Positions 707 to 11,618 of a DNA stretch of 64,000 bases are shown here, one piece after another. Positions within the stretch are counted from its first letter, which is position 1. Every line of letters begins with the position of its first letter. Position numbers and translations under genes: made by a program. The stretch spans positions 1,069,819 through 1,133,818 of the forward strand of contig NZ_FO538765.1 of the NCBI RefSeq assembly GCF_000968135.1. The letters run 5' to 3'. The DNA is from Magnetospira sp. QH-2 (GTDB lineage: Bacteria > Pseudomonadota > Alphaproteobacteria > Rhodospirillales > Magnetospiraceae). The notes below the pieces were generated by a model, which did no database searches, was not told the origin of the DNA, and saw nothing but the letters and a program-made list of their open reading frames with translations.

Positions 707-3430
707 ATGGATGGATCGGATCGGCAACCCAACGGGTTGCCGCCTGTGCGCGTGCCTTGGCATGCGTTGGACATGGGGCGGGTGCAACAGCTTCTGGATT
801 GCGGGCCCGATGGCCTGAGTGATCTTCAGGCCCAAGAGCGTCTAACCAGATTTGGCCCCAATCAGCTTCCGGAAGCGAGGCCCGTCAGCGCTTTTGTGCG
901 TTTCCTGCGGCAGTTCCATAATGTGCTGATTTACGTGCTGCTGGCGGCGGCGGGGATGACCGCCGCGCTGGAACACTGGATCGACACCGGGGTCATTGTC
1001 GCCGTGGTGCTGATCAACGTGATCATCGGATTCTTGCAAGAGGGCAAGGCCGAGGATGCCTTGCGCGCCATCCGCAATATGCTGTCGCCCCAGGCCATGG
1101 TCCTGCGGGACGGACGGCGAACCGTCATTGAGGCGCGGGATCTGGTGCCCGGGGATCTGGTACTGCTGCAATCGGGCGACAAGGTGCCCGCCGACCTGCG
1201 GCTGCTCAGCGGACGGGAACTGCGTCTTCAGGAAGCGGTGCTGACAGGCGAATCCGTCGCCGTGAGCAAGACCATCGAACCACGACCGGAGGAAACGGTG
1301 CTCGCCGATCGCCGCTGCATGGCCTATTCGGGCACCTTGGTGACCGCCGGACAAGGGGCGGGATTGGTCATCGCCACGGGCAAGGAAACGGAAATCGGTC
1401 GCATCAGTGCCCTGGTCGCCCGGGTGGAACAACTGACCACGCCGCTGCTGCGTCAGATGGCCCAGTTCGGTCGCTGGCTGACGGCGGGCATTCTCGCCAT
1501 CACCATGTTTACCTTCCTGTTCGGGGTCTTGGTGCAGGGCTATTCGGCGGTTCAGATGTTCCTGGCCGGGGTCGGGCTGGCGGTAGCGGCGATTCCCGAA
1601 GGCCTGCCCGCCATCATGACCATCACCCTGGCCATCGGGGTTCAGCGCATGGCCAAACGCAACGCCATCATCCGGCGTCTGCCGGCGGTGGAGACCCTGG
1701 GTGCGGTGACCACCATCTGTTCCGACAAGACCGGCACCCTGACCTGCAACGAGATGACCGTGCGCGGACTGGTCACCGCCGATGGGCGATTCGAAACCTC
1801 CGGTACCGGCTACGACCCCCACGGGGGATTCCATGCCGATGGCACGGAGTTGCTGGCGCCCTTGGATTTCGCTCTGATCCAGGCGGCGGAGGCGGCCTGC
1901 CTGTGCAACGATGCCTCGTTGGAACAAAAGGACGGCGACTGGCGGGTCAATGGCGATCCCATGGAAGGGGCGCTGCTGGTGGCCGGGATCAAGGCCGGAC
2001 TGGAGCCCGACTTGCTGGCCCGTCAGTATCCGCGCACGGATCTGATTCCATTCGAATCCGAGCATCGCTTCATGGCTACCTTGCACCATAGCCACGCGGG
2101 TGAAGCTTTCGTCTTCGTCAAGGGGGCGCCGGAGCGGTTGTTGGAGATGTGCCGCACCCAACGGACCCGGGACGGCGATGGTCTTCTCGACCGGGACTAT
2201 TGGTCCCGCATGACCGAGACCCTGGCCGATAGCGGGCAGCGGGTGCTGGCGGTGGCCGTACAGGAGGTTCCGGGAGATCGCTTGGAATTGGAATTCGACG
2301 ACATCGACGGGGACTTGGTGATGCTGGCCCTGTTCGGCCTGATCGATCCACCGAGGGAGGAAGCGGTGACGGCGGTGGGGACCTGTCGCGGGGCCGGGAT
2401 CCGGGTCAAGATGATCACCGGCGATCATGCTCTGACCGCCCGGGCCATCGCCCGGCAGCTGGATCTGGCCCATGCCGACGGCGCCCTGACCGGGGCTGAA
2501 CTGGATGACCTGGACGACGAAGAGCTTTCGGCGCGGCTGTCCCAGGTGGATGTGTTCGCCCGGGTGAGTCCAGAACATAAGCTGCGGCTGGTCAGTCTGA
2601 TGCAAGGCCAGGGCGGCATCGTCGCCATGACCGGCGACGGGGTCAACGATGCCCCGGCGCTCAAACGGGCCGATGTGGGGGTGGCCATGGGCCGCAACGG
2701 CACCGAGGCGGCCAAGGACGCCGCCGAAATGGTGCTGGCCGACGACAACTTCGCCTCTATCTCCCATGCGGTGGAGGAGGGGCGGACGGTGGACGACAAC
2801 ATCAAGAAGTCGATCCTGTTCATTCTGCCCACCAATGGCGGCGAGGCGCTGACCATTCTGGCCGCCGTGCTGTTTGGTTTCGCCGACTTGCCGCTGACCC
2901 CGGTACAGATTCTGTGGGTCAATATGATCACTGCCGTGACCTTGGCGCTGGCCTTGGCTTTCGAGCCGCCGGAACCGCATGTGATGGCGCGCCCGCCCCG
3001 CGAGCCGGACGAGCCTATCCTGACCCGGCTTTTCATCTGGCGCATTACCTATGTGTCGCTGATCCTGGTGACCGGGGTCTTCGGTCTATACCTGTGGGAG
3101 ACCGCCCAAGGGGCCAGCCTGGCCGAGGCCCGCACGGTGGCGGTCAATACCCTGATCCTGTTTGAGATCTTTTATCTGTTCAATTCGCGGTCCATTATCG
3201 GGCCTGTGCTCAACCGGCGCGGCCTGCTGGGCAGCCCGGTGGCGCTCTATGCGGTCGGGTTGCTGATCATCATCCAGATCGGCTTCACCTACCTGGGATT
3301 CATGCAGACCCTGTTCGGGGTTGCCGCCATCGGCCCGGAGACCTGGCTTCGAATCGTCCTGGTGGCCTCGTCGGTCCTGTTCCTGGTTGAATTGGAAAAA
3401 GCCCTGCGGCGCAAAAGTTCGCGCGGTTAG
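707..3430 (+). CDS. P-type cation-transporting ATPase (P2 type, Ca2+/CtpF-like)
   Basis: ATP-driven inner-membrane cation pump of 907 aa, the usual length for P2-type ATPases. All signature motifs are visible: an N-terminal cation-ATPase domain; actuator TGES at 180-183; PEGLP in the ion-binding M4 helix at 297-301; phosphorylation motif DKTGTLT with Asp340; a KGAPE nucleotide-binding motif; and hinge motif TGDGVNDAP at 642-650. Four C-terminal membrane helices follow. PEGLP plus the long C-terminal membrane part points to the Ca2+/Mg2+ or PMR1/CtpF group rather than heavy-metal CPx pumps, which carry CPC. Exact ion unknown. ATG at 707 is preceded by AGGGAG at 692-697. It stands just upstream of the feo operon, but a Fur-like box and a gap of about 180 nt separate them. 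Confidence 0.93.
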   Translation: MDGSDRQPNGLPPVRVPWHALDMGRVQQLLDCGPDGLSDLQAQERLTRFGPNQLPEARPVSAFVRFLRQFHNVLIYVLLAAAGMTAALEHWIDTGVIVAVVLINVIIGFLQEGKAEDALRAIRNMLSPQAMVLRDGRRTVIEARDLVPGDLVLLQSGDKVPADLRLLSGRELRLQEAVLTGESVAVSKTIEPRPEETVLADRRCMAYSGTLVTAGQGAGLVIATGKETEIGRISALVARVEQLTTPLLRQMAQFGRWLTAGILAITMFTFLFGVLVQGYSAVQMFLAGVGLAVAAIPEGLPAIMTITLAIGVQRMAKRNAIIRRLPAVETLGAVTTICSDKTGTLTCNEMTVRGLVTADGRFETSGTGYDPHGGFHADGTELLAPLDFALIQAAEAACLCNDASLEQKDGDWRVNGDPMEGALLVAGIKAGLEPDLLARQYPRTDLIPFESEHRFMATLHHSHAGEAFVFVKGAPERLLEMCRTQRTRDGDGLLDRDYWSRMTETLADSGQRVLAVAVQEVPGDRLELEFDDIDGDLVMLALFGLIDPPREEAVTAVGTCRGAGIRVKMITGDHALTARAIARQLDLAHADGALTGAELDDLDDEELSARLSQVDVFARVSPEHKLRLVSLMQGQGGIVAMTGDGVNDAPALKRADVGVAMGRNGTEAAKDAAEMVLADDNFASISHAVEEGRTVDDNIKKSILFILPTNGGEALTILAAVLFGFADLPLTPVQILWVNMITAVTLALALAFEPPEPHVMARPPREPDEPILTRLFIWRITYVSLILVTGVFGLYLWETAQGASLAEARTVAVNTLILFEIFYLFNSRSIIGPVLNRRGLLGSPVALYAVGLLIIIQIGFTYLGFMQTLFGVAAIGPETWLRIVLVASSVLFLVELEKALRRKSSRG

Positions 3431-3537
3431 GCCGATTCACCCCCCCCCCAAGAAAAAAACCGGATAATTATTATGGTTTTTCAGGGGTCTGAGCCGTCGA
3501 TTCTCGACGAGAGGAAGGAAAGGCGTTTTTTTCGCTT

Positions 3538-3556
3538 GGTAATGATACTCAGAATC
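3538..3556 (+). promoter_or_regulatory. Fur-like box upstream of feoA
   Basis: The sequence GGTAATGATACTCAGAATC matches the 19-bp consensus GATAATGATAATCATTATC at 15 of 19 positions and contains the dyad TGATnCTnAGnATCA at 3543-3557. It lies about 55 nt before the chosen feoA start, where a Fur operator would repress ferrous-iron uptake in iron-replete cells. The match is seen in the sequence; regulation is inferred. Confidence 0.6.
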
Positions 3557-3610
3557 AATAGTATTGCGCCGCTATTGCGAATGAGACGCAACAAATATAT
3601 CGGGGGCGAT

Positions 3611-3877
3611 ATGATCGACGACTGTAATGATTGCTGTGGCGACACCAAGAACGACAAGACACTGGCCGACCTGAAAGCGGGTGAGCAGAGCACGATTATC
3701 TGCATCTCCGGCGATGATTCGCTGAAGCGCCGTCTGTCCTCCATGGGCGTGGTCAAGGGAACGCAGATTTCCTTGGATCGCAAAGCCCCCCTGGGCGATC
3801 CCCGGGCTTACGAGCTGATGGGCTACAAGCTGAGCCTACGGCAGGCGGAAGCCAAGCAGATCGTCATCGAAGGCTGA
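3611..3877 (+). CDS. feoA: Ferrous iron transport protein A
   Basis: Small cytoplasmic SH3-like partner of FeoB, 88 aa from the ATG at 3611. A longer reading frame opens at 3473, but that start lies upstream of the Fur-like box, and the 88-aa product has the normal FeoA length. The core shows the FeoA pattern: LADLKAGEQSTI, then RRLSSMGVVKGTQI, and a C-terminal LSLRQAEAKQIVI strand. The first 12 residues hold three Cys (DCNDCCGD), an addition to the usual FeoA core that could bind metal or sense redox. feoB follows after 57 nt, so the two probably form one iron-regulated operon. Confidence 0.9.
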   Translation: MIDDCNDCCGDTKNDKTLADLKAGEQSTIICISGDDSLKRRLSSMGVVKGTQISLDRKAPLGDPRAYELMGYKLSLRQAEAKQIVIEG

Positions 3878-3934: not shown

Positions 3935-6070
3935 ATGAACCTTCACGAGCGTAGGGTGACGGTTGCCCTGGTGGGCAACCCCAATTGCGGCAAGACGTCG
4001 CTGTCGAACAAGCTGACCGGATCGCATGATTCCGTGGGTAACTATCCCCGGGTCACGGTGGCCAAGAAGATGCGCGCCGTCGAACACAAGGGCTGGACCC
4101 TGGAGTTCGTCGACCTGCCGGGGGTTTATTCCCTGACCTCCCAATCGCCGGAAGAACGCATCGCCCGTGACTACATTCAAGACACCCGCCCCGACATTGT
4201 CCTTAACGTACTGGACGCGGGCAATCTGCAACGCAGCTTGTTCCTGACCACTCAGCTCATCGAGATGGGCGCCCCTCGGGTCTATTGCCTTAACATGGCC
4301 GACGAGATGCGGTCCAAGGGACGGACCATCAACATCGGTGATTTTGGCTCCATGCTCGGTGGCCCCGTGGTGGAAACCGTGGCCAAAAACGGCGAAGGGG
4401 TCGAGGCTCTGCTGGATGCGGTGGTCACGGTCGCCGAGGGCCTGCCCTCGGAGCATCCGTTGCGGGTGCCCTATGACAGCCATCTGGAAGAAGCCATCGA
4501 GCGGGCCGAGAAACAGGTCGCCGATCTGCATCCCGGCATGCTGAAGGAAACCCAGAGCCGCTGGCTGGCTATCAAGCTTCTCGAAGGCGATGACGAAGTG
4601 CTGCGGCGCGAGGCCGAGCATGATGAATTGGTGGGGCTGGTGACCAGCGACCGTGAAGAGCTGGTGCGGACCCACGGCGAAAGCGTCGAGGCCATGTTCG
4701 CCACCGCGCGCTACGGCTTCATCCACGGTCTTTTGATGGAAGTGGGCGGCGAGGTCGATGACATGGCCAAGCGCATGGACATGACCCGCTTTATCGATTC
4801 CCTGACCCTGCACCCGGTCCTTGGGCTGCCCATTTTCCTGGGCTTCCTGTGGCTGATGTTCGAAACCACCTTTACCGTCGGCGCCATTCCCATGGACTGG
4901 ATTGATGCCGGGGTCGGCTGGATTTCAGAGGTCGTTTCCGGAATCCTCCCGGCGGGCATGGTGCATGACTTGGTGGTGGACGGCATCATCGCCGGCATGG
5001 GCGGAACGATCATCTTCCTGCCCAACATCGTCATTTTGTTCTTCTTCATGGCCATTTTCAGCGAGACCGGCTACCTGTCGCGCTCGGCCTTCCTGCTCGA
5101 CCGGATCATGCATAGCTTCGGTATGCACGGCAAAGCCTTCATTCCGCTGGTCATGGGCTTCGGCTGCAACGTGCCCGCCATCATGGCCACCCGGACCATC
5201 GAGAGCGACCGGTCGCGGATGATTGCCATTTTGGTCAATCCCTACATCACCTGTTCGGCCCGGCTGCCGGTGTTCGTGTTGTTCGCCGGTGCGTTCTTTG
5301 CCGAGAGCGCGGGCACGGTGGTGTTCGGCATGTACATGCTGTCCATCGTCATGGCGGTGCTGGCGGCGGTGCTTTTGGACAAGTTCGTGTTCAAGGGCGA
5401 ATCCGAACCCTTTGTCATGGAACTGCCGCCCTACCGCATGCCGACGGCCGCCGCGGTCATGCATCACATGGGTGAAAAGGCCCTGGGCTTCTTGAAAAAG
5501 GTCGCGGGCGTCATCCTGGTGGGCTCGATCATCATCTGGTTCCTGCAGGCCTTCCCGCAGAACATTCAATACTCGCAGGACTACGATTCGCAGATTTCCG
5601 TGCTGGAAACCCAGCCCGAGAGCGAAGCCCGCGACACGCAGCTTGCCGTCCTGCAAAGCAAGAAGTCGGGCGAGGAACTGCAAAAGAGCTATCTGGGCAG
5701 GATCGCCGGTGGCTTTGCGCCGATCGTCGAACCCATCGGCTTTACCTGGATGGATACGGTGGCCATCCTCACTGGCTTCGTGGCCAAGGAAGTGGTGGTC
5801 GCCTCCTATGCGGTCATGTACGCCCAGGGCGAGGAGGCGGACGAGGAATCCACCGGCCTGAGACAGGCCCTGGCTGGGTCCATGACACCGCTGGTGGCCT
5901 TTGCCTTCATGGTCTTCATTCTGCTCTATGCGCCCTGTTTGGCCACCATCGCGGTGATCAAGCGGGAAGCGGGCGGCTGGAAGTGGGCTGGGTTCTCGGT
6001 GGCTTTCTCGCTGGTGCTGGCCTATACCATGGCCTTCGGCATCGTCACCATCGGGGCGATCATCATCTAG
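3935..6070 (+). CDS. feoB: Ferrous iron transporter B (GTPase-permease)
   Basis: Inner-membrane Fe(II) importer of 711 aa. The N-terminal G domain has G1 GNPNCGKTS (14-22), G3 DLPG (60-63) and G4 NMAD (120-123). A helical GDI-like spacer runs to about residue 285, then the membrane part with the two inverted gate regions (near FGCNVPAIMATRTI and FVAKEVVVASY). A ribosome site GAGGGAAG sits just before ATG 3935. It follows feoA and is followed 13 nt later by a small Cys-rich membrane protein that often accompanies FeoB. In magnetotactic bacteria FeoB paralogues help supply iron for magnetite; whether this copy does so is inference from the Mms6-like gene downstream. Confidence 0.96.
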   Translation: MNLHERRVTVALVGNPNCGKTSLSNKLTGSHDSVGNYPRVTVAKKMRAVEHKGWTLEFVDLPGVYSLTSQSPEERIARDYIQDTRPDIVLNVLDAGNLQRSLFLTTQLIEMGAPRVYCLNMADEMRSKGRTINIGDFGSMLGGPVVETVAKNGEGVEALLDAVVTVAEGLPSEHPLRVPYDSHLEEAIERAEKQVADLHPGMLKETQSRWLAIKLLEGDDEVLRREAEHDELVGLVTSDREELVRTHGESVEAMFATARYGFIHGLLMEVGGEVDDMAKRMDMTRFIDSLTLHPVLGLPIFLGFLWLMFETTFTVGAIPMDWIDAGVGWISEVVSGILPAGMVHDLVVDGIIAGMGGTIIFLPNIVILFFFMAIFSETGYLSRSAFLLDRIMHSFGMHGKAFIPLVMGFGCNVPAIMATRTIESDRSRMIAILVNPYITCSARLPVFVLFAGAFFAESAGTVVFGMYMLSIVMAVLAAVLLDKFVFKGESEPFVMELPPYRMPTAAAVMHHMGEKALGFLKKVAGVILVGSIIIWFLQAFPQNIQYSQDYDSQISVLETQPESEARDTQLAVLQSKKSGEELQKSYLGRIAGGFAPIVEPIGFTWMDTVAILTGFVAKEVVVASYAVMYAQGEEADEESTGLRQALAGSMTPLVAFAFMVFILLYAPCLATIAVIKREAGGWKWAGFSVAFSLVLAYTMAFGIVTIGAIII

Positions 6071-6316: not shown

Positions 6317-6976
6317 GTGGCCAGAAAGCCCGAGGAATACCAACGTAGCCGTCTGTTTGATTTGTTTGGTGGCAAGAAACAGCAAGCCTTCGAGGAATTC
6401 GAACTGCTCGCCGAGGATCTGCCGCCGGAGCCCCGCCGACGTTCGAGGAGCCGGGATGACCGGGAAAAGCTCGACCCCGGCGAACCCATCGACATGCCAC
6501 CGCCGCAAATGCATCCCGATCCCCTGGAAAAGCCTCGGCGCGACCGCGAGCCGGGACCCGACGATCGCCCGGTACCCCGGGCCAAACCCCGTGCGCGCAG
6601 CGCGGAGGGCGAATCCAAGGAGCGTCGAGCGGAAATGCTGCGTTGGCTCCGACACGAGGAGGAAAGCACCCATATCCTCAATCAGGTGGAACGGGTCATG
6701 CTGGCCTTGGAGAGGCACGACCGCCGCCGCCGCAATGTATTTCTCAAAATGATCGCCGCCTGGCTGATCGCCTATACCCTGACCATCGGCGAGATTCCCT
6801 GGTTCATTAAAGAAGGCTGGGTTGTGGGCTATGACCTGCTGGCCAACTGGACCGAGTTCTTCGCCATGCCGTCGCCGGAGGTGGCGCCATTGCCTGACTC
6901 CACCCCGGCACCCGCCGTGACTCCGGTTACGCCGGAACCACCGCCTCTTCCGCCGCAGGCACCAAACCTTAAGTAA
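6317..6976 (+). CDS. Pro/Arg-rich single-pass membrane protein, unknown
   Basis: 219 aa from a GTG start, 68 nt after the Cys-rich FeoB partner and on the same strand, so possibly the last gene of the feo operon. Residues 1-100 are charged and disordered-looking (Arg, Glu, Pro). A helical charged stretch at about 100-143 precedes one membrane segment (about 144-165), then a Pro/Ala-rich tail ends the protein. I do not recognise a family. The lack of a signal peptide and the cluster of Arg before the helix suggest that the large N-terminal part is cytoplasmic. A linker or scaffold role next to FeoB or a magnetosome membrane is speculative. Confidence 0.65.
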   Translation: MARKPEEYQRSRLFDLFGGKKQQAFEEFELLAEDLPPEPRRRSRSRDDREKLDPGEPIDMPPPQMHPDPLEKPRRDREPGPDDRPVPRAKPRARSAEGESKERRAEMLRWLRHEEESTHILNQVERVMLALERHDRRRRNVFLKMIAAWLIAYTLTIGEIPWFIKEGWVVGYDLLANWTEFFAMPSPEVAPLPDSTPAPAVTPVTPEPPPLPPQAPNLK

Positions 6977-7161
6977 CGATTCGGCGTGGATACCCAAAAT
7001 AGAGGGTATTTCGGCTGCGAAACGGAACCTTCGCCATGGTTTTTTCAACAGGACGAAGTAACGTCCCATACGTTATTTGCGCTTGACCTAGGTGTGAAAT
7101 TGAGGGGGGGGGCTTGCTTCCCGAGCTAACATGGTAAAATCGGGAGATAAATTCAGTAATT

Positions 7162-7180
7162 GATAATAATTCTCATTTAT
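7162..7180 (+). promoter_or_regulatory. Fur-like box upstream of the Mms6/MamD-like gene
   Basis: GATAATAATTCTCATTTAT matches the Fur 19-bp consensus at 13 of 19 positions, inside an unusually AT-rich patch (7140-7205) of an otherwise GC-rich region. It lies in the 383-nt space 6977-7359, about 180 nt before the start codon of the LG-repeat gene. Apart from this patch I see no gene in that space. Confidence 0.5.
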
Positions 7181-7359
7181 ATATTGAATGTAATAATATA
7201 ACTGTCTAGGTTTTGTTTTGAGTTACTCGGAAGGATAGAGGCTTTTACTTGCAATTACAGTGCTTGCGTTTTCTGTGCTGTACAGGTATCAATTTCGCTA
7301 TGGGGCCAGTTCGATTGCATGCCCGATTGATGGAATAACCAGATTTAACGAGGTTCGAT

Positions 7360-8067
7360 ATGCCTATCACCGACGCCACCTTGACCCTCGGCGCCAAAGA
7401 AACCCTGAACATCACCGGGCCGGCGACCGTGGATCTCACCAATATTCAGCTCAACGGCATGACCGGCAAGGCTGCAGGGGTCAAAGCCGCCGCCGCCAAG
7501 AAGGGTGGCGCGGCCACCGTGGCCAAGGTCGACGTGGCCGGCACGAAAGCTGGTGGCGCCAAGGCCGCCATGGCCAAGGGAGCCGCCGCACGCGAAGTCG
7601 AAAACGAAGGCGCCGCCGCCATGGGCAAGGCCGCCGCTGGCAAGGGTGCCGCGGGTGGCAAGGCTGCCGCCATGAAGGGCGGTGCCGCGAAAGCCGCCGC
7701 TGCTCGCGAGATTGAAAACGAAGGTGCCGCCGCCATGGCCAAGGGTGCCATGGGCAAAGGCGCCGCTGCCAAGGGTGGCGCTGGTGGCGCCAAGTGTTTG
7801 GCCGGAACCAAGGCTGCCGCCGGAGCCGGTAAGGCTGCCGCCACGCAGGCCGGTGCCGCCAAGGGCATGGTCGTTGCCAACACCACGGGAACCGCCGCGA
7901 CGGGAACCACTGTCGCCACGGGTGGCGCCAAGGGTCTGAGCCTGGGTCTCGGCCTGGGTCTGGGCATCTGGGGGCCGATCGCTCTTGGGACCGTCGGCGT
8001 GCTCGGCGCCATTGCCGCCTATGGCTACTACAAGCGCTCCAAGGGCGGCGAAGAAGCCACTGCCTAA
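7360..8067 (+). CDS. Mms6/MamD-like magnetosome membrane protein with LG repeat
   Basis: 235 aa. The C-terminal part carries the signature of magnetosome proteins Mms6 and MamD: a Leu-Gly repeat LGLGLGLGIWGP (195-206), a following hydrophobic segment (about 206-223), then YYKRSKGGEE. In Mms6 this part sits in the magnetosome membrane and the acidic tail after it binds iron and shapes magnetite; here the acidic tail is only GGEEATA. The N-terminal 40 residues look like a small beta domain. Residues 40-180 are an Ala/Gly/Lys-rich linker with a 38-residue tandem repeat built around AAAREVENEGAAAM (Arg78) and AAAREIENEGAAAM (Arg116). The length is between Mms6 and MamD. It lies downstream of the feo genes behind a Fur-like box. 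The family assignment is good; its role in biomineralisation here is inferred. Confidence 0.82.
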   Translation: MPITDATLTLGAKETLNITGPATVDLTNIQLNGMTGKAAGVKAAAAKKGGAATVAKVDVAGTKAGGAKAAMAKGAAAREVENEGAAAMGKAAAGKGAAGGKAAAMKGGAAKAAAAREIENEGAAAMAKGAMGKGAAAKGGAGGAKCLAGTKAAAGAGKAAATQAGAAKGMVVANTTGTAATGTTVATGGAKGLSLGLGLGLGIWGPIALGTVGVLGAIAAYGYYKRSKGGEEATA

Positions 8068-8093
8068 ATCACGGCGCCCTCTATAGAATGGCA

Positions 8094-8130
8094 ACGGGCC
8101 GGATCCTCGAAGATCCGGCCCGTTTCGTTT
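8094..8130 (+). terminator. Rho-independent terminator after the Mms6/MamD-like gene
   Basis: Perfect 12-bp stem, ACGGGCCGGATC (8094-8105) against GATCCGGCCCGT (8112-8123), with a 6-nt loop and a T-rich tail. It begins 26 nt after the stop codon, so the magnetosome-type gene probably has its own transcript end. Confidence 0.88.
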
Positions 8131-9660: not shown

Positions 9661-10446
9661 TCAGGCCTTGCCGGGGTTCCTTCTCCGCAGGCGGGTCAGC
9701 CCGAAAAGCCCGGTGGCGAACAACGCCAGACTGCCCGGTTCCGGCACGCCCACCGGGGTGCCGGTGATTACCAGATCGTCAATCCAGCCCATGATCGGCG
9801 TGTAGTGATAGGACTCGGCGTTGATGTACTGATAAAGGGACAGGCTCGTGGCCGTGGACAGGTCCATCAGCGGAATGGCGGCGGTGACGTCATGAATGAC
9901 GGCCCCGGATTCCAGGTCCTGAACCAGCATGTTGAGGCTGCCATCCTGGAGCGTATGGGTCCAACGGTAGGTGCCCGGGTCGTTGGGCACGGCGCCAATG
10001 GTGTCGGCGTAGGTATGGAGATTGCCGAACCGGTCATCGCCTTCGAAGATATCGGCGCGCATGCGGTTACTGCCGTAGTTGTAGGAGGCCATGCGGCTGC
10101 GGCTGACGAAGGCTCCCCCGTCGGTCTCCACGCGTAGCCAATTGCTATTGCCCCAGTAGATGCTCTCCATGGAGCCGATGTAGGTCATGGTCAAGCTGTC
10201 ATATGATTCACCGTTCAGGTCATAGGTCAGGTAGCCGCCCCCATCGATGTTGTGGACCTGAAAACGCTGGTTCTCGATGGCGCCATAGCCGTTGCGTGGG
10301 GACCAGGAGGTAAAGCTCCAGCCATCGGGCACCTGATTATCGTTGAAATCATAGGTGCCGATGATCTCGGCCCGGGCCGTGGTGGTGGCGCATAGCAAGG
10401 CGGCCGCCAGGGCGATGGCCGTTTTCTTGGATACGGTCATGGTCAT
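9661..10446 (-). CDS. PEP-CTERM sorting domain protein
   Basis: 261 aa secreted protein: signal peptide MTMTVSKKTAIALAAALLCATTTARA, a beta-rich, Tyr/Asn/Asp/Gly-rich extracellular body, and a C-terminal VPEPGSLALFATGLFGLTRLRRR-type signal (written here with its key parts VPEP, hydrophobic helix, RRR). This tripartite tail is the PEP-CTERM signal recognised by exosortase, which anchors or exports proteins along with exopolysaccharide. The body (NGYGAIENQRFQVH, GGGYLTYDLNG) looks like a jelly-roll or lectin-type fold without a known active site. AAGGAGAAA precedes ATG 10446. No exosortase gene lies in the window. Confidence 0.85.
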   Translation of the reverse strand: MTMTVSKKTAIALAAALLCATTTARAEIIGTYDFNDNQVPDGWSFTSWSPRNGYGAIENQRFQVHNIDGGGYLTYDLNGESYDSLTMTYIGSMESIYWGNSNWLRVETDGGAFVSRSRMASYNYGSNRMRADIFEGDDRFGNLHTYADTIGAVPNDPGTYRWTHTLQDGSLNMLVQDLESGAVIHDVTAAIPLMDLSTATSLSLYQYINAESYHYTPIMGWIDDLVITGTPVGVPEPGSLALFATGLFGLTRLRRRNPGKA

Positions 10447-10832: not shown

Positions 10833-11618
10833 TCACCCCCTGTGCAGGAAAAATGGTTTGTCGTGGACCAGGATGTGATCGATGAGCCAGAAGCGGACGA
10901 AATCACGCATCAAGATGCGGGCATCGTCCATGTCCGTTTCCTTGCGCAGATTTTCAATGGTATGGCGCAGTTCCGACAGCAATCGAGCGTGATCCCGGGC
11001 ATGGGCCTGGGCTTCCGCCGAGTGAATGGTGGCGAATTCGGATTCCTCGTGCTCAAAGTGGACCTTGGTAAAGCTGTAGATTTGGGCGAAGTTTTCCAGG
11101 AAAACCTCTTCCTCGACCCCGTTCATGATCCAGCCATAGAGCCGATTGAGATAGTTCACCAAAGCCTTGTGGTGCTCGTCAATGATCTCGTCATGGACCA
11201 GCAATGAGTCGTCCCAGGTAATCAGGTGCTCGGTCGGAGTCTGGGCCAACACTTCCCAGTATTCCTGATCGCCCAGCAACTCGTGCTCGAATACCGTGCG
11301 TTCCGCTTCGTCAATGAAGCGGTACATATAGTCCTCACCCTTGCCGTCGGCGAGCTTGCGCAGCTTGCGGATGATATGGGCATGGTCTTCGTTGTGCCGT
11401 TGCCAACCGGCGAATCCGGCGGCGCGCACGATGGTCATCTCGGTCTGGAAATGGTCATCCAAATTGGCGAGAAAGCTGTCGATGACTGCGTCGCAGGCAT
11501 TCGGATCCTGTTCCATAATCCAGGCATGGGCCAGCTTGCTGACCAGCCGAGTCAGGTCCGCGTGGTGCTTGTCGATGATTTCATTGCCGCTCTGGGGGAA
11601 ATTCTGGCTCATATTCAA
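10833..11618 (-). CDS. Tandem bacteriohemerythrin (two diiron domains)
   Basis: 261 aa made of two hemerythrin folds in one chain. Domain 1 has the complete ligand set His19, His56, Glu60, His75, His79, His112, Asp117. Domain 2 repeats it as His150, His187, Glu191, His206, His210, His248, Asp253. Hemerythrins bind O2 at a carboxylate-bridged diiron centre and serve in oxygen storage, delivery or sensing. There is no signal peptide or membrane segment, so the protein is cytoplasmic. Most bacterial single-domain forms are ~130 aa; this is a clean duplication. Microaerophilic magnetotactic bacteria are rich in hemerythrins, which fits the proposed host. The start at 11618 has an alternative Met two codons downstream. 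Confidence 0.93.
   Translation of the reverse strand: MNMSQNFPQSGNEIIDKHHADLTRLVSKLAHAWIMEQDPNACDAVIDSFLANLDDHFQTEMTIVRAAGFAGWQRHNEDHAHIIRKLRKLADGKGEDYMYRFIDEAERTVFEHELLGDQEYWEVLAQTPTEHLITWDDSLLVHDEIIDEHHKALVNYLNRLYGWIMNGVEEEVFLENFAQIYSFTKVHFEHEESEFATIHSAEAQAHARDHARLLSELRHTIENLRKETDMDDARILMRDFVRFWLIDHILVHDKPFFLHRG

Follow-up and report, generated by a model that had tools for sequence, protein, structure and literature searches.

What kind of protein is encoded beside the feo genes of Magnetospira sp. QH-2? The window analysed here is a 64,000-nucleotide stretch (C1:1069819-1133818) of a genome of 4,052,370 bases on two contigs. An ORF on its + strand, starting at C1:1077178, encodes P0001, a 235-aa Ala/Gly/Lys-rich protein. 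A first-pass annotation proposed a new LG-repeat magnetosome protein coupled to ferrous-iron uptake, with a body and tail unlike those of known members and with ENE repeats that might supply iron-binding acid groups. Feature coordinates are listed in Table 1.

Table 1. Features of the P0001 gene and its feo neighbourhood (window positions)
Feature	Position	Strand	Basis
Fur-like sites by feoA	3462-3476 (11/14); 3537-3551 (2 mismatches)		Pattern match
feoA	3611..3877	+	Pfam FeoA 9.2e-20; ORF 3473-3877, start 3611 the likely reading
feoB	3935..6070	+	TIGR00437 599 bits, above cut-off
219-aa ORF between feoB and LG gene	6317..6976	+	Unknown family
Fur-family-like 7-1-7 box TGATAATAATTCTCA	7161..7175	+	0 mismatches to TGATAATNATTNTCA; 184 bp ahead of start codon
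Sigma-70-like promoter match, overlaps box	7170..7197	+	1 found vs 0.6 expected in shuffles; weak alone
GAGG, probable ribosome-binding site	7350..7353	+	Sequence
LG-repeat protein CDS (P0001, 235 aa)	7360..8067	+	ORF; sub-threshold NCBIfam MamD, Mms6 and MamG matches
N-terminal module, residues 1-29	7360..7446	+	Weakly related to GE(T/S)-x4-GP(G/A) module of distant-set LG proteins
38-aa repeat copy 1, residues 59-96, with REVENEGAAAM	7534..7647	+	Sequence
38-aa repeat copy 2, residues 97-134, with REIENEGAAAM	7648..7761	+	Sequence
LG run and membrane segment, residues 193-224	7936..8031	+	Sequence
Tail KRSKGGEEATA, residues 225-235, two acidic residues	8032..8064	+	Sequence
Terminator-like hairpin, 13 pairs, T-rich tail	8093..8124	+	2 in region scanned vs 1.9 expected in shuffles; weak

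Locus and protein architecture

For Magnetospira sp. QH-2, published descriptions give a genome of 4.0 Mb that contains a 45-kb island (PMC4306944) and place a feoAB cluster among its magnetosome genes (PMC3934378). The genome does carry magnetosome genes outside the locus, as a magnetosome reading of P0001 presupposes. Eight of the ten ORFs scanned at C1:1047913-1064965 scored above curated NCBIfam cut-offs (mamH, mamK, mamM, mamO, mamP, mamA, mamQ and mamB), among them MamK with 540 bits, MamM 479, MamO 986, MamB 483 and MamH 647 (C1:1047913-1063522); MamS and MamT were marginally under theirs. Upstream ORFs resembling mamZ, mamX, mamI, mamE, mamL, mamN and mamR were named by gene order and by eye. 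The mamH-mamT genes are 12-30 kb upstream of the P0001 gene, which starts ~12 kb past mamT. A true MamD is encoded at C1:3875435 (370 bits). The genome has four LG genes: those of P0001 and MamD, and two more at C1:1047014 and C1:1484771.

The placement in a feo locus was borne out. Both feoA and feoB are upstream of the P0001 gene on the same strand, and the FeoB match is 1293 bp away with one ORF between. This 219-aa ORF has a hydrophobic segment and a Pro-rich end; Pfam and NCBIfam had nothing for it up to E 1, and tblastn at 1e-3 matched it in none of 20 loci. Downstream, the ORF at 9661-10446 has a PEP-CTERM-like end by eye, and the ORF between mamT and feoA (C1:1065541-1066131) looked like the former at its start only. 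The ORF at 10833-11618 has, by eye, the appearance of a double hemerythrin domain; bacteriohemerythrins are mentioned in the magnetosome island in PMC9549626.

A gap of 383 bp separates the P0001 gene from the preceding ORF and, together with the promoter-like and terminator-like matches, weakly suggests that the gene is transcribed as a unit of its own. Because two antisense ORFs (188 and 249 aa) overlap it, the open frame alone proves little; coding on the + strand is supported by homology.

P0001 has a ~36-residue N-terminal stretch, an Ala/Gly/Lys linker with two repeats, LSLGLGLGLGIWGP, a hydrophobic segment and a short tail. In the C-terminal half, LSLGLGLGLGIWGP and the hydrophobic stretch (19-aa Kyte-Doolittle mean of up to 1.76, at residue 201) are followed by YYKRSKGGEEATA. 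The ENE triplets start at residues 81 and 119, a spacing of 38, and the two repeat copies are identical at 25/38 amino acids and 76/114 nucleotides. Among non-overlapping 38-mers of the linker, the best pair agrees at 26/38 positions, a value matched by none of 2000 linker shuffles (mean 16.5, maximum 22). The 38-aa repeat is real. The features first reported, namely repeat, LG run, membrane segment and two-acid tail, were all confirmed. Net charge amounts to +13 in the 150 residues preceding the LG run, and residues 37-192 include 21 Lys and 2 Arg against 7 acids.

Relationship to magnetosome LG proteins

P0001 matched the NCBIfam models of MamD (1.2e-9), Mms6 (1.9e-9) and MamG (1.1e-8), all far under curated cut-offs: 37.9 bits against 200 for Mms6 (NF040917), 37.8 against 100 for MamD (NF040916) and 35.2 against 100 for MamG (NF040985). 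The matches are confined to the C-terminal part, residues 108-235 at most. The likeness to MamD/Mms7 is limited to the C-terminal module (profile positions 203-306 of 318), with no match to the N-terminal MamD part. Pfam gave no match up to E 1. Four group models scored P0001 at 61 bits (Mms6), 47 (Mms5, a model built on only six sequences very similar to one another), 30 (MamD) and 18 (MamG), and 200 shuffled copies reached at best -16 bits on the same models, which places the similarity beyond Gly/Leu low complexity. At 1e-6, the Mms6 model matched 37/317 genomes of the order and 0/14 control genomes. P0001 has a GLGLGLGxWGP run followed by a membrane helix and a family-model E below 1e-5, in a genome with magnetosome genes. 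Its identification as a magnetosome-type LG protein therefore holds in a broad sense.

P0001 was compared within a set of 75 distinct LG proteins, drawn from loci round most, not all, Mms6-model matches and from relatives found in a contig pattern scan. Simple rules of our own (tail pattern, length, neighbours) divided the set into P0001, 6 Mms5-type, 22 Mms6-type, 12 MamD, 7 MamG and 27 other proteins. The pattern scan confirmed 8 of 212 stretches as relatives; FeoB was on none of these 8, some of which are short contigs. By C-terminal module, five of the six Mms5-type proteins are the closest to P0001 (ranks 1-5 of 74, each identical at 29-30 of 43 positions) and the sixth is at rank 8. In a tree of 45 C-terminal columns, P0001 falls on the side of a split (82/89) that also contains the Mms6 group, and its neighbours are mms6-type genes from two MAGs of Gammaproteobacteria (92/64). 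These columns do not reject a clade of P0001 with Mms5 (p-AU 0.296), and the best tree places P0001 elsewhere.

The body and the tail do not depart from known members as had been supposed. The ENE repeat is a doubled E(I/V/M)ExE(G/A)A-or-close motif, present twice as E(V/I)ENEGA. Such motifs are found in 6/6 Mms5-type proteins, which are the feoAB-linked LG proteins of Magnetospirillum, in 3/22 Mms6-type proteins, where the form is GEMEREGA(A/T)AK, and in 5/27 others, but in 0/12 MamD and 0/7 MamG proteins. Among 200,000 linker shuffles, a regular expression found at least one copy in 112 and two copies in none. The two-acid tail is likewise shared with 6/6 Mms5-type proteins. Mms6-type proteins instead have 4 to 10 acids in an acidic C-terminal tail (n=22), a comparison to which the partly tail-based definition of that group contributes.

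P0001 thus shares both sequence marks of the Mms5 set, the E(I/V)ExEGA-type motif and the two-acid tail, along with an Ala-rich domain, G(V/L)SLGLGLGLGxWGP plus GAxAxYGYYK, adjacency to feoAB and a Fur-like box upstream. It differs from the set in an additional module at its N-terminus, a more basic body (+13 against +8 to +9 ahead of the LG run), two clear 38-aa copies of the motif, a gene on the same strand as feoAB and not convergent to it, and no MamF-like neighbour seen. On the NCBIfam MamG model, one Mms5-type protein is accepted (107.7 bits) and another is near the cut-off of 100 (99.7), well above P0001. The LG run and membrane helix are shared with Mms6, which gave the best of the four group models.

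An mms5-mmxF operon is described in M. gryphiswaldense (PMC9549626, PMC7908775, PMC11628618), and in MSR-1 feoAB1 and mmxF share one region (PMC5920173). From this literature, the feoAB-linked LG genes of Magnetospirillum are inferred to be mms5. In 10 loci of 9 Magnetospirillum-type genomes, less than ~1 kb separates an LG gene from FeoB, and a MamF-like gene lies in this interval. The synteny check therefore upheld the linkage of LG genes with feoAB and failed for the MamF-like neighbour: none was found near P0001 by tblastn above 60 bits within 8 kb in the window, and the only MamF-like gene in the stretches of this genome examined adjoins the mms6-like gene. The earlier proposal of a new magnetosome protein coupled to ferrous-iron uptake likewise stands for the magnetosome-type and feo setting, and its newness is reduced by the published mms5-mmxF near feoAB1 (PMC9549626, PMC5920173, PMC11628618).

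In a FeoB tree of 29 rows, the window FeoB falls together with the FeoB of G002 (98/93), a genome of the same family in which the Mms6 model has no match; its grouping with G254/G256 is less certain (85/77). It is not sister to Magnetospirillum FeoB1. FeoBs that have an LG gene no more than 2 kb away are scattered over at least four distinct parts of this tree, so the linkage is recurrent and not a single shared inheritance; one inherited feoAB-LG module was not upheld. G120 has a second LG gene (L061:13634-14140, 168 aa) ~1.9 kb from FeoB on the feoA side, and L077 and L117 have proteins similar to its product. G142 has two very similar FeoB copies (C1:2396863 and 3812780), with LG matches ~0.9 and 4 kb away.

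The first 29 residues of P0001, and also the start of the paralogue at C1:1484771, resemble a GE(T/S)-x4-GP(G/A) module. A module profile made without the own genome finds P0001 among 10,873 ORF segments with E 0.012 for a shortened stretch and 0.069 for the full ORF, which weakly suggests a link to LG proteins of a distant set from the same phylum but another class. In that set, GE(T/S)-x4-GPG near the start is followed by an LG C-terminus on 16/20 stretches, 11 of the 16 with mam-like genes; the genomes are presumably those of magnetotactic cocci. The distant-set LG proteins are shorter than P0001, several have basic WPF-type tails, and none of 30 has the ExEGA motif; FeoB is on 1/20 stretches. 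The combination of this module, a doubled ExEGA motif and the LG anchor was in no other LG protein examined. With P0001 as the query, only its own genome was matched among the genomes of the genus (of 1), of the family (of 3) and of a class-wide sample of 385, and a plasmid collection gave no match.

Judged from its sequence, P0001 is a genuine LG-family magnetosome-type protein in a feo neighbourhood of known type. It belongs to a known family as a mosaic member and is not a new kind of protein. The most interesting part of the locus is the iron-regulator-like site before the gene.

Fur-like boxes upstream of LG genes

Eight distinct sites in the genome have at most one mismatch to TGATAATNATTNTCA, and the reversed-pattern control has 0. 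Of the seven sites beyond that of P0001, one is 143 bp before the mms6-like gene (start of our choice) and another precedes mamD by 197 bp and, in the other direction, a divergent ORF by 37 bp. The chance of two of seven sites falling in the ~900 bp concerned is of the order of 1e-6, by arithmetic done after the sites were seen. The genes that follow other sites look, by eye, like a cation-efflux gene and a cytochrome gene and not like classical iron-uptake genes. No site within one mismatch of the degenerate form accompanies the second feoB of the genome. Against the classical 19-bp Fur consensus, the box before P0001 scores 14/19 and two other places in the window, including one before feoA, score 15/19. 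Three Fur-family genes are present in the genome.

Two features near these sites were observed in passing. The divergent ORF by mamD is one of two Ala/Gly-rich ORFs (L001:324-605 and 640-1245, C1 ~3874258-3875179) on the strand opposite mamD, which gave no NCBIfam match up to 0.01. Elsewhere, two boxes exact to the degenerate pattern are 336 bp apart (L194:2710-2724 and 3046-3060; C1:3104209 and 3104545) with no clear gene between, possibly marking a short gene or small RNA.

Across the order, at least 11/14 of TGATAATNATTATCA is found in 22/54 upstream regions of operon-leading LG genes against 17/339 controls (Fisher 1.5e-11). With G+C under 0.55, the counts are 21/39 against 17/125 (1e-6), and at 12/14 or more they are 7/39 against 4/125 (0.004). 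The 54 leading regions are those of 76 without a same-strand gene within 100 bp. Nearly all are from the order of P0001; two gammaproteobacterial MAG loci are among them, as are several near-identical genomes. Related genomes are counted repeatedly, so the enrichment values overstate the case. The motif was also first noticed before the P0001 gene itself, and the order-wide counts are not independent. Controls were mechanically called ORFs, and 19 that overlap LG upstream regions were kept in the TGATAATNATTATCA test and dropped in the degenerate-pattern test, which makes the former stricter. The degenerate pattern gave 20/54 against 4/292 at one mismatch or fewer and 40 against 17 at two or fewer, counts that are circular because the pattern was partly drawn from the same regions. 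LG genes of the distant set have no box enrichment (2/18 against 2/21 controls), and Fur-like boxes before LG genes outside the order were not upheld. Nine Magnetospirillum-type feoA upstream regions scored only 7-10 of 14.

MSR-1 Fur binds the feoAB1 operator, an atypical Fur box, and a Pseudomonas Fur box (PMC4506495). In an M. gryphiswaldense fur mutant, Mms6 alone among island proteins reportedly changed (cited in PMC3251581). Under anoxia, mms5op and mms6op are up and feoB1 is down in this species (PMC9549626), and a common iron switch alone is insufficient for these opposite responses. The portions of the literature on Fur boxes and magnetosome genes that were covered hold no account of boxes before LG genes; novelty is not claimed. 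A Fur-family regulon of LG crystal-growth genes (mms5, mms6 and mamG operons, and P0001) with feoAB in this order is a tentative reading, somewhat more doubtful than not.

Proposed role and alternative explanations

We consider it reasonably probable that P0001 is a magnetosome-membrane LG protein of the MamD/Mms6/MamG/Mms5 kind that tunes crystal growth and shares a Fur-family regulator with feoAB, the mms6-like gene and mamD. The family relationship, the island context, the Fur-like box and the weak signs of an own transcription unit are read directly from the sequence; the role is extended from relatives. The basic Ala/Gly/Lys domain would lie outside the membrane, and the LG run and the helix after it would insert in the magnetosome membrane. 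In Mms6, the GL region is required for membrane localisation and the N-terminal domain affects conditional localisation (PMC11332177). Delivery may involve a MamF-like protein, as published for M. gryphiswaldense MamD and Mms5, crystal-growth mediators whose targeting depends on MamF-like proteins and of which Mms5 is depleted 12-fold without them (PMC11628618). By analogy, P0001 would tune magnetite crystal growth and not bind iron through its ENE repeats. A Fur-family regulator, as repressor or activator, would probably set P0001 expression jointly with feoAB, the mms6-like gene and mamD, so that the supply of crystal-growth protein follows iron status.

The neighbourhood could also suggest an accessory of Feo uptake at the cytoplasmic membrane without a direct magnetosome role, given Fur-like sites before both the feo and P0001 genes and the LG genes recurrently placed within 2 kb of FeoB. 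This is unlikely, since the relatives that have been described are proteins of the magnetosome membrane (PMC11628618, PMC11332177), many LG loci are set among mam genes and have no FeoB, and none of the four LG matches of the genome is near its second feoB. With four LG genes present, and with mamGFDC transposon insertions causing no magnetic defect in an M. gryphiswaldense screen (PMC7676999), P0001 might instead be a redundant or decaying paralogue of no present function; an intact frame, a doubled conserved motif, a complete LG module, the Fur-like box and the weak promoter and terminator matches make this quite unlikely.

The view of P0001 as an iron-binding nucleator, with ENE repeats in place of the acidic tail of Mms6, draws on the iron binding of the Mms6 acidic region (PMC11332177) and on the placement of four of the nine Glu within the two ENE motifs, with two more directly before them. 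The strongly basic character of the repeat region makes an acid patch for iron binding unlikely there, and three Mms6-type proteins carry such a motif besides an acidic tail, so the motif is no replacement. The stand-in role first suggested for the repeats was rejected on these grounds, and a nucleator is very unlikely. Least credible is a histone-H1-like or other low-complexity Ala/Lys protein with compositional LG likeness, despite a weak NCBIfam histone-H1-like match (E 0.0071) and sub-cut-off matches of the MamD model to 4/14 control genomes at a lax E of up to 1: the scores of shuffled copies, the absence of Mms6-model matches from control genomes, the membrane segment and the magnetosome context all count against it, and a purely compositional resemblance was rejected.

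P0001 as a crystal-growth protein under Fur-family control would bear on the coupling of iron supply and crystal growth in magnetotactic bacteria, about which little is understood; in M. gryphiswaldense, regulation of most magnetosome genes is reported to be weak (PMC9549626). The mosaic of an N-terminal GE-GP module, an Mms5/Mms6 motif and an LG anchor illustrates how such low-complexity proteins are assembled, and its modules mark protein parts missed by curated models. A Fur-like box before feoAB and LG crystal-growth genes, if shared, would be a directly testable link. If the regulon is real, crystal-growth proteins would be made to match iron status, and the gene of the mosaic P0001 carries an exact box.
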